Below, piece after piece: positions 21,506-36,327 of a stretch of DNA of 64,000 nucleotides. The notes under the pieces are model-generated. The model made no database searches. It saw only the letters and a program-made list of their open reading frames with translations, and was not told where the DNA came from. Both the position numbers and the translations under genes were made by a program. This DNA comes from Paenibacillus castaneae. GTDB lineage: Bacteria; Bacillota; Bacilli; Paenibacillales; Paenibacillaceae. The stretch is taken from the NCBI RefSeq assembly GCF_002884445.1, contig NZ_KZ614144.1, positions 2,837,551 to 2,901,550 of the forward strand, in the 5' to 3' direction. The first letter of the stretch is position 1. Every line of letters begins with the position of its first letter.

Positions 21506-21690
21506 ATTCTCATTTCTCCCTTCGCAATAAATTAGTTCAAACACGATTGTATTCTCTAACCTCCCAGTAATTTCCTGCCTATTCGTTAATGAGAAATCGA
21601 AAAATCTTGATAAGAAAGTATTGAATATAAATAAGTGTGGGATAGTAATTCGGTAATTCAAAATAGGGTTAAAGGGGTAGTGAATTTCAT

Positions 21691-22866
21691 ATGCAAGAGA
21701 ATAATGGTATAGCGGATACACGTGGTAAAAACAATAAGAAAAGCGGGCTTCTTGCTAAGTACATAGGTACAGCGATTCTTGCTTTAGTTCTGATGATTGG
21801 AATGCCGCAAACAGGCCTTGCAGTTGGGAAAGGAGCGAAGGGACCGGATGTGTATGTCATTCAAGGCATGTTGAAATCATTAGGCAGCTACTCTGGTCCA
21901 ATCGATGGCTACTATAATGCTCAGACAGTGCGCGGCGTGAAATATTATCAGAAGAAGCATTCATTACCCGTGACTGGAGCAGTTGATGCGGCTACGCTTA
22001 AGTCTATAAATTATTCGTATTCGACTTTAAAAACAGAAATGAAAGCTCGCAGCAAAGCAAAGTGGAAAGGAAATGCGAAAGGCATAGGTAAAGGCGGCGG
22101 AGCTGGTGGCGGAGCAGGTGGCGGTGCAGGCGGCGGAGCAGGTGGCGGAGCAGGCGGCGGAGCTGGTGGCGGTGCAGGCGGCGGTGCAGGCGGAGGAGCT
22201 GGTGGCGGTGTAGGCGGAGGAGCTGGTGGCGGTGCAGGCGGCGGTGCAGGCGGAGGAGCTGGTGGCGGTGCAGGCGGAGGAGCTGGCGGCGGAGCTGGTG
22301 GCGGTGCAGGCGGCGGAGCTGGTGGCGGTGTAGGCGGCGGAGCTGGTGGCGGTGCAGGCGGCGGAGCTGGCATTAAGTCGGAAAATCTAGGTCCTGGCGG
22401 TAAAATTGGTGGTCAATCTGAGAATCAAAATAAACGCCGCGGACAAATCGGTAATCAAGGCAAAGGCGGGATCAAAAAAGAAAATGAGGGTCCTGGCGGT
22501 CAAATAGGTGGTCAAACTGAAAATCAAAATAAACGTCGCGGACAAATCGATAATCAAGGCAAAGGCGGCATAAAGAAAGAAAATGAGGGTCCTGGCGGTC
22601 AAATAGGTGGTCAATCTGAGAATCAAAATAAACGACGTTTACAAATTGGCAACCAAGGCCAAGGTGGAACGAGGTCGGAAAACCAGGGGCCTGGAGGCCA
22701 AATTGGCGGCCAGTCCGAGAATCAGAATAAAGGACGCGAACCATCCAGCAACCAAGGGCAAGGCGGCAACAATTCAGAAAATCAAGGGCCAAATGGTCAA
22801 ATCGGTAATCAAGGCAAAGGCGGTGCCAAATCCGAAAACGAAAATCGTAGTAAAAGTCAACAATAG
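21691..22866 (+). CDS. Secreted peptidoglycan-binding protein with silk-like Gly-Ala repeat and Asn/Gln-rich repeats
   Basis: A 391-residue exported protein in four parts. Residues 1-46: cytosolic basic leader and signal segment (GTAILALVLMIGMPQTGLAV). About 47-112: one PG_binding_1 module (GPDVYVIQGMLKSLGSYSG, IDGYYNAQTVRGVKYYQKKH, VTGAVDAATL) expected to bind cell-wall or cortex peptidoglycan. About 135-226: 23 tandem GGGA units, two of them GGGV. About 228-391: four 33-residue repeats and a partial one, rich in Asn, Gln, Gly and charge (core GPGGQIGGQSENQNK). The tail looks like a flexible, self-associating structural sleeve on a wall anchor. Function is inferred; no enzyme domain is present. 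AAAGGGG precedes the ATG. Confidence 0.88.
   Translation: MQENNGIADTRGKNNKKSGLLAKYIGTAILALVLMIGMPQTGLAVGKGAKGPDVYVIQGMLKSLGSYSGPIDGYYNAQTVRGVKYYQKKHSLPVTGAVDAATLKSINYSYSTLKTEMKARSKAKWKGNAKGIGKGGGAGGGAGGGAGGGAGGGAGGGAGGGAGGGAGGGAGGGVGGGAGGGAGGGAGGGAGGGAGGGAGGGAGGGAGGGAGGGVGGGAGGGAGGGAGIKSENLGPGGKIGGQSENQNKRRGQIGNQGKGGIKKENEGPGGQIGGQTENQNKRRGQIDNQGKGGIKKENEGPGGQIGGQSENQNKRRLQIGNQGQGGTRSENQGPGGQIGGQSENQNKGREPSSNQGQGGNNSENQGPNGQIGNQGKGGAKSENENRSKSQQ
22093..22368 (+). repeat. 23 tandem 12-bp units encoding Gly-Gly-Gly-Ala/Val
   Basis: Every unit is GGN GGN GGN GCN, with GTA in units 10 and 20. Units 7-11 and 12-16 are a 60-bp duplication differing by one base (the C/T that turns Ala into Val), and units 18-23 are three near-identical 24-bp pairs. 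The repeat has therefore grown by block duplication as well as single-unit slippage. Confidence 0.95.
22372..22866 (+). repeat. Four 99-bp coding repeats plus a shortened fifth
   Basis: 33-codon units start at 22372, 22471, 22570 and 22669, with a partial unit from 22768 to the stop. Units 2 and 3 are nearly identical, while units 1 and 4 are more diverged. Each contains a GPGG-QIGGQ-ENQNK-type core and a NQG[KQ]GG junction. Confidence 0.9.
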
Positions 22867-22891: not shown

Positions 22892-22920
22892 AAGAGGTCC
22901 TCGCTGGAGGACCTCTTTCT
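22892..22920 (+). terminator. Rho-independent terminator
   Basis: AAGAGGTCCTC and GAGGACCTCTT form a perfect 11-bp stem with a four-base loop and a short T-rich tail, shortly after the repeat protein. Confidence 0.85.
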
Positions 22921-26108: not shown

Positions 26109-26150
26109 TATTTAGATAACATGATAGTTTCCTCGCGATACAACAAATTT

Positions 26151-26181
26151 AGAATAATAAACGATGTTATCGTACATACTA
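26151..26181 (+). promoter_or_regulatory. Sigma-G-type forespore promoter of the ger operon
   Basis: AGAATA (26151-26156) and CATACTA (26175-26181) are separated by 18 bp. This fits the forespore sigma-G consensus (TGnATR, 17-18 bp, CATnnTA) at almost every position. It sits 65 bases upstream of the gerA-type ATG, as expected for germinant receptors, which are made in the forespore. Confidence 0.72.
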
Positions 26182-26246
26182 CGCTCATCTTTAATTGGAA
26201 AACTAAGGGAGTTTTTGCGAAGCCTATTGGAAGGGTGCTGGAGCGA

Positions 26247-27926
26247 ATGGATATCAAGAAAATGCTTAAGAAATATATCGTTGCGGATTTGTTTGCTCAC
26301 CAAAACGAGTTTTCACTAGGGAAATGGGATGGGAAGGCTGAACCTATCACACCTGAAGCCAATTCTAAGGTGAACGAAAGCAGTATGCCGCAAATTAAAG
26401 ATTTTATTCAAGATTATGGTACATTGTCTACAAGTCTGATTACGAATATAAAGTGGTTTAAAACTCATTTCACCTATCCTCGCAATAGTGGCCTAGTTGT
26501 TCGAGAGGTTGAAGTCGGAAACGCTTCTTTAAATGGAGTAGTTCTTTTCATGGATGGACAAGTGGATTGGGAGCACTTGGATCGATCTGTAATGGTGCCA
26601 TTAATGAATATGGAATTGAAGAATGATGATGATATGAATATAGATAAGATGAAGGCAGAGGTTTTTAAAGAAGGAAAAGTATCTTCCGATTCCCAGCTTG
26701 GGCAAATTACGCATAGCATTTTGACAGGTTCTGCAGCCATTTTATTAGAGAACATGAAAGAAGCAATTATTGTTCAGGTTCAAGGCTGGGAGAAAAAGGC
26801 AATTGAAAGCCCTCGAACTGAGGTTGTGGTGCGAGGATCCAACGAAGGCTTTACGGAGGAGCTTCAGACGAATTTGTCTATGATCAGAAGGAGGCTGCGG
26901 ACACCGGACCTCATCGTTGAGGAAGGATATGTGGGGACACTATCGCGCACTGAAATTGCGATTGTTTATATCAAATCGATTGCAAACGATGAGCTTGTGG
27001 CTGAAGTGAGGAAACGTATAGCAACAATCAAGTATGATTACATCGGCGATAGCGGCACGATTGAACAATTAATTGAAGAGCATTCTAATTCCTTCTATCC
27101 TAATATTCTAAGTACAGAGAGGCCTGACTGGACTGCTTCGCATATCGCAGATGGCTATGTGAGCATTATGGTTAATAACTCTCCATTCGCGCTCATCGTA
27201 CCCGCACATTTCCCACTCTTTCTGCAGACCGTAGAAGATACCTATCTTCGTTGGCCCTACAGCAGCTTTATTCGTTTCATTCGCGTGGTTGGCTTCGTTA
27301 TAGCTTTATATTTGCCAAGCGTTTATGTCGCTGTTGCTAACTACCATCAGGAAATGATTCCAACAACACTGATGCTAGCCATTGCAGGGACGCGTGAGGT
27401 CGTACCTATCCCATTAGCAGCAGAAATATTTATGCTAGAAGCAATGTTCGAAATTATTCGAGAAGCAGGAGTTCGTATACCAAGCGTAATGGGTCCGACC
27501 ATCGGCATTGTGGGGGCGTTAATATTGGGACAAGCAGCTGTTCAAGCCAATATTGTTAGTCCCATTGTCGTTATCATCACTGCTACGACAGCTCTTGCAT
27601 CTTATACAATTCCAAACTACAACATGCAATTTGCAACACGATTGCTTCGTTTTGTTAACTTGATTGCAGCTTCATTTCTTGGTTTAGTTGGTATTGTCTT
27701 GCTCTCTTTAATGCTATGGACTGACCGGTCTACCAAGAATTCATTTGGGGTTCCCGTGCTTGCTCCAATTACACCTCATCGAGCAGACCGTGATTCGATT
27801 ATTAGAAGAGCAATTAACAAGCAAATTTTCAGACCCTTTTCCATCCGCCCCAAAGAGGTGAAGAAACAATATACAGGAAAACAGCATGAATCACATAAAT
27901 CCAGGGAGCAAGGGGATGCGGAGTAG
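26247..27926 (+). CDS. Spore germination protein, GerA/GerKA A-subunit
   Basis: A 559-residue A subunit of a germinant receptor. It has a large N-terminal cytosolic part (SLITNIKWFKTHF, ENMKEAIIVQVQGWEKKAIESP region), the family segment RRRLRTPDLIVEEGYVGTLSRT, and a C-terminal half with about five membrane helices (FIRFIRVVGFVIALYLPSVY, IPLAAEIFMLEAMFEIIREA, VGALILGQAAVQANIVSPI). The ATG at 26247 is used: GGAG lies 4 bases upstream and the putative promoter at 26151-26181 excludes the longer start at 26121. It acts in the spore inner membrane and forms the receptor with the next three genes. Confidence 0.93.
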   Translation: MDIKKMLKKYIVADLFAHQNEFSLGKWDGKAEPITPEANSKVNESSMPQIKDFIQDYGTLSTSLITNIKWFKTHFTYPRNSGLVVREVEVGNASLNGVVLFMDGQVDWEHLDRSVMVPLMNMELKNDDDMNIDKMKAEVFKEGKVSSDSQLGQITHSILTGSAAILLENMKEAIIVQVQGWEKKAIESPRTEVVVRGSNEGFTEELQTNLSMIRRRLRTPDLIVEEGYVGTLSRTEIAIVYIKSIANDELVAEVRKRIATIKYDYIGDSGTIEQLIEEHSNSFYPNILSTERPDWTASHIADGYVSIMVNNSPFALIVPAHFPLFLQTVEDTYLRWPYSSFIRFIRVVGFVIALYLPSVYVAVANYHQEMIPTTLMLAIAGTREVVPIPLAAEIFMLEAMFEIIREAGVRIPSVMGPTIGIVGALILGQAAVQANIVSPIVVIITATTALASYTIPNYNMQFATRLLRFVNLIAASFLGLVGIVLLSLMLWTDRSTKNSFGVPVLAPITPHRADRDSIIRRAINKQIFRPFSIRPKEVKKQYTGKQHESHKSREQGDAE

Positions 27927-27931
27927 TGAGA

Positions 27932-29020
27932 ATGCATCACATCGGAATAAGAGAGGCTTCAGCAATAGTAATAATTTTTGTAATCACAAAAATTTTTCTG
28001 CCATTTCAAAGATCATTGTCCGAGGTGGGCGGTACTGCTGCGTGGATTATTATACTTATAGCCATACTATTCTGTCCGTTAACCTGGTGGGCTGTTAGAG
28101 GTGTTTTGAAGAATGGTCCTGAACAATGTACTTTAGTTACGGCGACTGAAAACATATTGGGTCCACTTCTCGGAAATGTGGTTAATCTGCTGTATTGCAT
28201 TTTTTTCTTTATGATTACCTTCATTGTACTTCGGGAATTTTCGGAAATTATATCTTCTGAAATTCTGCCTAGAACACCTCTTACCGTTATTTTGTTGTCT
28301 TTACTCATCCCCATTGCCTTTATCACTCATTTAGGTATTGAAGCTGTGGGTCGGATTAGCTCAGTTACGATTATTTTAATTGTTGGAAGTGTCTATATTT
28401 TGCTTATTGGCGGATTAATTACTCATATGGAGCCGAATGCACTTTCGCCTTTGTGGGGAACTGGCCGATCCCATGTGCTTTGGATGGGTGTCATTAAGAG
28501 TTCTCTATTCTCAGAGCTGCTTGTACTCGGTTTTCTTCTACCAAAAATGCGAAATCAAAAAGAGTGGGGTAAAGTTGCATGGTGGTCCATCACGGTATCA
28601 TCCATCGTATTGTTAAGTACGACAATTCTTTATCTGTATATCTTCCCTTACCCTACTGCGGCGCGAATTAATGTACCTTTATTGCAAATCAGTAAACTAA
28701 TCATATTTGGACGCTGGCTGCAGAGAATGGAGAGCTTGTTTCTCATCGTCTGGTTAATTTGTACCGTAATTAAATTAGCAGTTAGCTTATACTGCACGGT
28801 TTCATCTTTATCTCAAATTATTCGTTTGCCTAGGCATCAGTCGCTCGTTTTTCCAATAACGATAATCATATTTAGTTTTGCCATGCTGCCAGACAGTGAA
28901 ATGACTGCATACGCCTGGGACAAAAATATCCTTCGAACCTATGGTTCCATCATATCGATAGGCCTTCCGATGTTAACTTGGATAGTAGGCATTATCCGTA
29001 ATAAGAGGAGGCAGGTGTGA
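27932..29020 (+). CDS. Spore germination protein, GerB-family B-subunit (permease-like)
   Basis: A 362-residue polytopic protein with about ten membrane helices, of the endospore germination permease family (amino acid-polyamine-organocation fold). REASAIVIIFVITKIFL opens the first helix, and helix-breaking Gly-rich segments recur. B subunits carry the germinant-binding pocket in better-studied receptors. ATG 27932 is preferred to GTG 27926 because GGAG at 27920-27923 is 8 bases away. It starts 6 bases after the A-subunit stop. Confidence 0.92.
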   Translation: MHHIGIREASAIVIIFVITKIFLPFQRSLSEVGGTAAWIIILIAILFCPLTWWAVRGVLKNGPEQCTLVTATENILGPLLGNVVNLLYCIFFFMITFIVLREFSEIISSEILPRTPLTVILLSLLIPIAFITHLGIEAVGRISSVTIILIVGSVYILLIGGLITHMEPNALSPLWGTGRSHVLWMGVIKSSLFSELLVLGFLLPKMRNQKEWGKVAWWSITVSSIVLLSTTILYLYIFPYPTAARINVPLLQISKLIIFGRWLQRMESLFLIVWLICTVIKLAVSLYCTVSSLSQIIRLPRHQSLVFPITIIIFSFAMLPDSEMTAYAWDKNILRTYGSIISIGLPMLTWIVGIIRNKRRQV

Positions 29021-34871: not shown

Positions 34872-35133
34872 AACTTATCCAAAAATGCGAAGAAGAGGAC
34901 AATTAGAATCCGGGAGCTGCACAGAGAACTGCTGGTAGGTGCGAAGCAGTCAGTGACGGGATTTGAAAAATCACCTCAGAGCAGGTCTCCGAAACTTAAA
35001 GTAGGCGGACCCGGAATCCTACCGTTATAAAGGAGCATCATTGTAGGATGATGGCAAAGAAGGGTGTATTTCGTTTACACCAATCAGGGTGGTAACGCGG
35101 ATCAACTCCGTCCCTTATGGGACGGAGTTTTTT
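34872..35133 (+). ncRNA. T-box leader controlling a GNAT gene; specifier probably AUC (Ile)
   Basis: Class hallmarks are all present. Stem I is closed by GAGG/CCUC, with the AGAGA and GGUGCGAAGC distal elements. The T-box core AGGGTGGTAACGCGG is at 35086-35100, and a strong terminator (AACTCCGTCCC with GGGACGGAGTT and a T-run) ends at 35133. The specifier loop 3' strand reads TTGAAAAATCA before the closing CCTC. Aligned by its closing helix with the trpS leader 1.2 kb downstream, the codon is ATC at 34970-34972, followed by the usual A. AAT one base earlier is the alternative. Uncharged tRNA would promote antitermination. Confidence 0.9.
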
Positions 35134-36054: not shown

Positions 36055-36327
36055 AAATAACATTCGTGCGATGATGAAGAGAGTAAACATAAGGGATTCT
36101 CAGAGAGCTGATGGTTGGTGCGAATCAGTGTAGAAATTATGTTGAATTGGGCTTCTGAGCATCCAGACCGAAAATGATTTTGTAGGCTCTGGCGAAAGTC
36201 TCATCGTTACAAGAGACACGTATTAAAACCTAGTTTAGATACGTTAAAGTGAGTCCGTCTGAAACGGGCTAATGAAGGTGGTACCACGGGGTTTCCCGTC
36301 CTTATACAGGACGAGAAACCTCTTTTT
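36055..36327 (+). ncRNA. T-box leader of trpS; specifier UGG (Trp)
   Basis: Stem I shows AGAGAG, GGTTGGTGCGAATCAG and the specifier loop TTGAATTGGG before the closing CTTC (paired with GAAG at the base). TGG at 36148-36150 is the specifier and matches the downstream gene. The T-box core AAGGTGGTACCACGGG is at 36275-36290, and the terminator (GGTTTC-CCGTCCT with AGGACG-AGAAACC) has a T-run to 36327. Uncharged tRNA-Trp is expected to stabilise the antiterminator and turn on trpS. Confidence 0.95.

Follow-up and report, generated by a model that had tools for sequence, protein, structure and literature searches.

A protein of Paenibacillus castaneae with a peptidoglycan-binding domain and a repeat tail whose silk-like glycine alternation is maintained across unlike units

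In the window (the whole stretch of 64,000 nucleotides that was analysed, from a host genome of 6.3 Mb), one gene encodes a protein in which a single peptidoglycan (PG)-binding domain, with the fold of the N-terminal domain of SleB, is followed by a long tail where every second residue is glycine. This alternation, called here the Gly-X register, is kept by selection in a family of related proteins whose repeat units differ. The product is probably a structural protein anchored to peptidoglycan, irrespective of when it is made. That it is more precisely a spore-wall polymer of Gly-X type which the forespore makes and exports and which binds to peptidoglycan is a reading to which we give an even chance. 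The features of the locus are the following.

21618-21648, plus strand: promoter-like element made up of GTATT (21618-21622) and TGGGATAGTAA (21638-21648), corresponding to the one conserved upstream of the orthologues
21671-21677, plus strand: ribosome-binding-site-like AAAGGGG, with the ATG 13 nt further on (from the sequence)
21691-22866, plus strand: whole gene, PG-binding-domain protein with a Gly-X tail, 391 aa
21691-21822, plus strand: signal-peptide-like N-terminus, a hydrophobic helix and TGLA followed by VGK, with a putative cleavage point (from the sequence)
21841-22005, plus strand: PG_binding_1 domain, residues 51-105 (Pfam E 2e-16; model compared with SleB 6tci)
22093-22368, plus strand: 23 GGG(A/V) units in strict Gly-X register, residues 135-226
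22375-22863, plus strand: Asn/Gln/Lys/Gly-rich C-terminal region, four 33-residue repeats plus part of a fifth
22892-22917, no strand assigned: inverted repeat just 3' of the stop codon, possible terminator

The composition announced by the original prediction was correct: a signal-peptide-like start, one PG_binding_1 domain, exactly 23 GGG(A/V) units and slightly more than four repeats of 33 residues. Judged by eye, the N-terminus is basic, then hydrophobic, and ends in TGLA-VGK like that of exported proteins; a helix occupies residues 18-37 in the AlphaFold model. The PG_binding_1 score was 60.3 bits, against a curated cut-off of 23. As no catalytic domain was found in the protein at E 0.01 (Pfam, NCBIfam), its description as a PG-binding domain with a repeat tail rather than an enzyme is also supported. 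The C-terminal repeats appear in the DNA as a 99-nt period across 22375-22790 (TRF). Orthologues have RBS-like sites at the matching place, mostly AAGGATGGTG or AAGGAAGGTG. The possible terminator was called by the scan on the minus strand only, and the tail has fewer T on the plus strand. Open reading frames lying opposite the GGG(A/V) array on the other strand were taken as mirror readings. No RNA leader was detected for the gene by Rfam; the only two hits above the cut-off in the window are T-box leaders elsewhere (34881-35118 and 36062-36306, plus strand), about 1.2 kb apart. The stretch 26121-29020 of the window (plus strand) holds a GerA-type germination receptor gene (Pfam GerA), which starts about 3 kb downstream of the Gly-X gene, and after it another ORF for a membrane protein (27926-29020).

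The variation inside the window array is almost wholly synonymous. Among the 23 units of twelve bases, variation is seen at every one of the four third codon positions, at none of the first, and at second positions only in two GTA codons (Ala to Val); the array is under selection as protein. When the four complete 33-residue repeats were compared in pairs, the differences numbered 80 at third, 30 at first and 26 at second codon positions.

The PG-binding anchor is well conserved, with a mean column identity of 75% and 34 invariant columns in an alignment of 20 members and 107 columns. In the AlphaFold model of the window protein, residues 51-120 reached a pLDDT of at least 92 in blocks of ten, and the best PDB match of the model was the N-terminal domain of SleB (6tci; rmsd 0.7 A, TM-score 0.93 by target, 31% identity). 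Furthermore, the three best chains found with the anchor sequence profile were named spore cortex-lytic enzyme. SleB, like the window protein, has one PG_binding_1 domain of this fold after an N-terminal hydrophobic segment, but its catalytic domain is replaced here by the Gly-X tail; the SleB family model TIGR02869 matched the window protein over residues 45-119 only, at 45.3 bits against a cut-off of 236.5. By sequence, the nearest relatives of the anchor outside the Gly-X family are PGBD-CAP (YkwD-type) proteins, in all seven cases read, one of which (L189) is TIGR02909 spore_YkwD. These carry a CAP domain where the window protein has its tail: CAP (TIGR02909, PF00188) was present in 7/7 of the comparison proteins and was not found in the window protein. 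The closest relatives of the anchor are thus spore-type proteins, SleB by structure and PGBD-CAP by sequence.

The tails of the family are built of very unlike units. GGGA units occur in the window protein and in many relatives, GGGAGQGGGQGI in four genomes (G034, G047, G048, G002), GQGAGQGQGT in G015 and GNGAGGGA in G013; GGGQGQ is the unit of genus g10, GGGKGQ is also found among the orthologue units, and a second family, recovered in the order, uses GGGKGQGGGEGT. Common to nearly all of them is glycine at every second residue. In the window tail, a 98-residue segment has glycine at 100% of the alternate positions and a score of 49, where the maximum among shuffles was 11. When each tail was compared with 300 shuffles of its own residues, the alternate-glycine score lay above all of them in 58 of the 64 family tails and in 10 of the 12 second-family tails. 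The 64 were drawn from 69 family copies, leaving out three broken or partial ones (L130, L135, L139) and loci G007 and G042, and include four cut at a contig end (L085, L127, L145, L146). The tails not above their shuffles were L065 (masked by N), L071, L075, L122, L125 and L128, with L183 and L187 in the second family; L071 and L075 are Gly-rich tails devoid of register. In L182, proline stands at X positions, which speaks against a beta-sheet there.

Since repeats copy any chance pattern, a test on single changes was added, confined to arrays in which an intact unit on either side fixes the frame. Among 44 single glycine changes in GGGA arrays, 39 affected the middle glycine, which is at an X position, four the third and one the first. 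Counted as distinct combinations of protein, position and residue, the middle glycine accounted for 22 of 28, the third for four and the first for two (binomial p 1.2e-6 against one third), in a count where GGGQ was also taken as an intact unit, the second family was included and relatedness was left uncorrected. This concentration at the X position indicates that selection keeps the alternation. The word 'silk-like' in the original prediction was therefore apt, as the alternating-glycine register is kept even where the repeat unit differs, a feature of the likeness that goes beyond what had first been stated. Selection acts on the register and on an approximate tail length, a fixed repeat unit not being its target, which is more in keeping with a bulk material than with a specific site of binding. 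The AlphaFold model gave no confident structure for the tail (nearly all of it past residue 131 has a pLDDT below 50), a result that neither shows nor excludes assembly.

The tails have a median length of 219 residues, with 10th to 90th percentiles of 167 to 269 (57 proteins). Between pairs of different close species with anchor DNA 93-97% identical (the contig-cut L085 being left out), tail lengths differed by 0 to 63 residues: the tails of L045 and L047 have 236 and 259 residues and those of L177 and L179 have 169 and 232, while L066 and L069 both have 220. The predicted length variability is thus supported in part, being seen between close species, though some close pairs are equal. Phase variation, which had also been suggested, is not supported in its on/off form, because the units measure 12 and 99 nt and the gain or loss of whole units keeps the frame, so that it affects length and not expression. 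Several Gly-rich arrays contain a contig end or N (L019, L024, L028, L085, L127, L065, L131, L182); some tail lengths are for this reason unreliable, and draft genomes will under-report the family.

That unit and length differ between close species is what would be seen if the tail were a functionless low-complexity repeat that slippage had expanded where a PG-binding gene ends. The mostly synonymous variation of the window array, the register shared by unlike units and the conserved upstream element described below all oppose this explanation, which is highly improbable and can be regarded as nearly excluded.

The gene family is conserved and sharply bounded. It was found in 42 of the 51 genomes of the genus, with one profile match each, and the same 42 were recovered by a full-length search. 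In the taxonomic family, the profile search found it in 69 of 394 genomes, belonging to 6 of 19 genera; as the other 325 are without it, the gene answers no general need of spores. Named carriers are Paenibacillus endophyticus, P. paridis, P. glycinis, P. lycopersici (a partial copy) and a Cohnella. Across the order, a match at E 1e-15 was obtained in 104 of 392 genomes, at most 12 candidates per genome being scored here and in the family search. These matches fell into two grades, of which 20 loci were read: the 12 stronger ones, which belong to the second family, all had the anchor followed by a Gly-rich tail, while the eight weaker ones were seven PGBD-CAP proteins and one SleB-like protein (Pfam). 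The original prediction had called for a search for the same domain order, and the recurrence of anchor and Gly-rich tail in the orthologues argues against both chance and an artefact of assembly.

A tree built from 81 anchor domains groups the Gly-X proteins of the two families together on the same side of a branch with support 96/52; the CAP proteins come next, and SleB lies far off; L125, L128, L131 and L190 were left out, and with 81 rows on 75 columns the deep forks are weak. Two weak matches in the host genome were rejected: L002 is a SleB-like gene (PG_binding_1 and Hydrolase_2), and L003 (C1, about 3878942-3879088) lies in an 876-aa ORF named permease-like by eye. The latter contains a stretch rich in GGGS, GGGA and GGGN, another Gly-rich array in this genome. 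Around the Gly-X gene, no neighbour family recurred at over 16 of the 34 loci that entered the comparison (out of 39, five being dropped where the focal gene was missed in the ORF calls), so that the unit of conservation is the single gene. The broken or partial copies L130, L135 and L139, in three genomes, indicate that the gene is also lost.

Anchor and tail can be found apart. L125 and L128 retain the anchor with almost no tail, while a gene of G043 (L083:1024-1908, minus strand) has the upstream element, a ribosome site, a signal-peptide-like start and a Gly-rich repeat tail, with no PG-binding domain found in its product (Pfam, NCBIfam). Neither part is thus strictly needed for the survival of the other, which argues for a dispensable, adaptive role.

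These cases bear on another explanation, by which the protein would regulate cortex lysis: a SleB-type anchor would compete for sites with enzymes of the SleB/SleC type, and the tail would serve as bulk or as a spacer. The anchor and the SleB N-terminal domain are almost superimposable, the two copies with hardly any tail keep the anchor, and tail sequence evolves fast, as such a role would allow. However, the maintained Gly-X register and the G043 gene, which keeps element, export-like start and Gly-rich tail without a recognisable anchor, speak against this idea, and we consider it rather unlikely.

An element of the form ATGAAA...TTGGGNATAGTAA was found upstream of 78 of 79 copies, the sole exception being the broken copy L130. 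The 79 upstream regions came from 64 copies, two broken copies, the 12 second-family genes and the G043 gene. The core, GGGNATAGTAA, is nearly invariant; the pattern used to find it was flexible, with an estimated chance match in about 6% of regions, and a stricter form was met in 75 of the 78. ATGAAA or a variant of it lies 15-20 nt before the ATA of the core, and the loose pattern for this part was matched in 52 of the 78. When the 51 genus genomes were searched with the strict pattern ATGAA-N11-GGRRATAGTAA, 32 hits were obtained, against two for the reversed control. Thirty lay just 5' of a Gly-X gene, one was 5' of the G043 gene, and one, in G008, was taken as chance as it falls inside a 642-aa reading frame. 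The pattern was unmatched in 12 of the 42 genus genomes that bear the gene, the host genome included; in the window element, the first G of the -10 box is missing. By these sequence matches, the element is nearly private to the Gly-X gene. In the host genome, TGGGRATAGTAA occurred once, elsewhere (L087, where no anchor homologue was found), against two control hits.

No wider set of genes with the element emerged in eight genomes searched with up to three mismatches, where 211 hits were obtained against 204 for the reversed pattern; among the best matches listed for seven of the eight (all save G048), those with zero or one mismatch were the sites of the Gly-X gene only. This argues against a forespore promoter, for which kin would be expected, though the strict pattern could miss such kin.

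To score the element, 50 non-redundant copies were compared with 12 sigma-factor consensuses, against dinucleotide shuffles, a spacing of 13 being admitted after the data had been seen; the z values obtained were 13.2 for sigma-F, 12.2 for sigma-G, 9.9 for sigma-W, 6.9 for sigma-B, 6.6 for sigma-M, 2.4 for sigma-X and at most 0.7 for the rest. Mean scores of the Gly-X family were 0.82 (F) and 0.81 (G). Same-genus yardsticks scored 0.81 (gpr, F), 0.90 (spoIIR, F) and 0.97 (ssp, G), at loci chosen by sequence-derived patterns (gpr 22/25, spoIIR 14/26, and ssp 14/14 out of 29 ssp loci) and with the sigma dependence of these genes carried over from B. subtilis. As in gpr, GTATGAAA stands at -35 in 9 of the 78 elements. 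The fit is imperfect: the best spacings for sigma-F were scattered over 13-16 nt, the -10 box of the element has G at a position for which sigma-F calls for A or C, and only 2 of the 78 elements have the C with which the sigma-G box begins. The published sigma-F -10 box of B. subtilis csfB, GGGGAGGCTA (PMC4383634), resembles the GGGGATAGTA of the element. We take a promoter of the forespore type (sigma-F/sigma-G) to be likely upstream of the Gly-X gene.

During this work, conserved candidate forespore promoters were also noticed in the genus upstream of gpr (GTATGAAA..AACAATAAC) and of spoIIR (GGTTTATA..GGACATAATGA), at many loci (L226-L276 for the two genes together). The element is absent from six of the seven PGBD-CAP loci read; at the seventh, L190 (G505), its ATAGTAA core alone is present: GCATA-N18-CATAGTAAG lies 5' of the PGBD-CAP gene there, a single case noticed afterwards. 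This site, GCATA-N18-CATAGTA, is a full match to the sigma-G consensus.

The same scores leave room for a vegetative cell-wall protein, made by growing or stressed cells, in which the tail would cover the surface of the wall as a hydrophilic, disordered brush or act there as a spacer. TGAAA is present in the element, which scores well for sigma-W and sigma-M, the tail has no confident AlphaFold structure, and PG_binding_1 domains are also found in vegetative wall enzymes. On the other hand, the forespore consensuses score above those of sigma-W and sigma-M, the -10 boxes of the ECF sigma factors (CGTA/CGTC) do not occur in the element consensus, and the nearest relatives of the anchor are of the spore type. 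We regard a vegetative role as possible, if on the doubtful side.

We return to the forespore-made polymer of the spore wall, proposed for Paenibacillaceae, whose timing, place, binding and material we infer as follows. The gene would be transcribed in the forespore from the promoter of the sigma-F/sigma-G type, the 5' end of the transcript being expected several nt past GGGATAGTAA. The N-terminal signal peptide would then export the protein across the inner forespore membrane, and the SleB-kind domain, itself evident in the protein, would retain it on the peptidoglycan of the germ cell wall or cortex. There, the (Gly-X)n tail could extend within or across the peptidoglycan and, as a flexible chain with weak self-association, fill or cross-bridge the mesh. 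More speculatively, the basic Asn/Gln/Lys-rich C-terminal repeats might add contacts, perhaps with anionic polymers. The cortex, to which the protein had been assigned at first as one of two locations, would be favoured by the anchor of the SleB/YkwD type together with the promoter-like element of the forespore type, both of which give this placement indirect support. The cortex and germ-cell-wall layer is generally described as essentially peptidoglycan. The most specific form of the proposal, a forespore-made polymer in silk register, pinned by its SleB-type anchor, with the Gly-X tails as a protein matrix within this peptidoglycan, is tentative and, as a whole, doubtful.

The modules of the protein are known; as far as our literature searches go, their combination and the alternation rule are undescribed, and none of the open-licence PMC papers listed describes this protein. 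A 'bacterial silk' from a Bacillus strain is reportedly the subject of one paper (PMC8883917). Plant cell-wall glycine-rich proteins of the petunia GRP-1 type are secreted and have Gly-X or GGX arrays; they resemble the present family as wall proteins with Gly-X arrays and differ in that they are not known to have a PG-binding domain. The repeats of the mycobacterial PE_PGRS proteins follow a GGX period of three, in contrast with alternation, and no PE domain was found in the window protein, for which Pfam at E 0.01 gave PG_binding_1 only. As bacterial envelope proteins with Gly/Ala-rich low-complexity repeats, PE_PGRS proteins are otherwise comparable (PMC11939664). Silk fibroin shows the register in the form GAGAGS or GAGAGA, where some A or S are exchanged for Y or V, and the fibroin of Bombyx mori shares with the tails long alternate-glycine stretches in which X is often A and also V (PMC12512099). 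In the Gly-X family, by contrast, the X positions are often occupied by G, Q, N or K, runs of GAGAGS were not seen and a PG-binding domain is present; the likeness is one of sequence register, and beta-sheet crystals are not implied.

Silk-type alternation that is selected while the units turn over would be a clean natural example of how a bacterial structural protein, here linked to a PG-binding domain, can follow a design rule, and such proteins would be a potential source of wall-anchored, genetically short Gly-X material modules. As a single gene with a nearly private promoter-like element is concerned, the idea is easy to test. Should the protein be located in the spore, a group of soil bacteria would have a protein polymer in its cortex or germ cell wall, which would bear on the resistance of their spores and on the control of cortex lysis.
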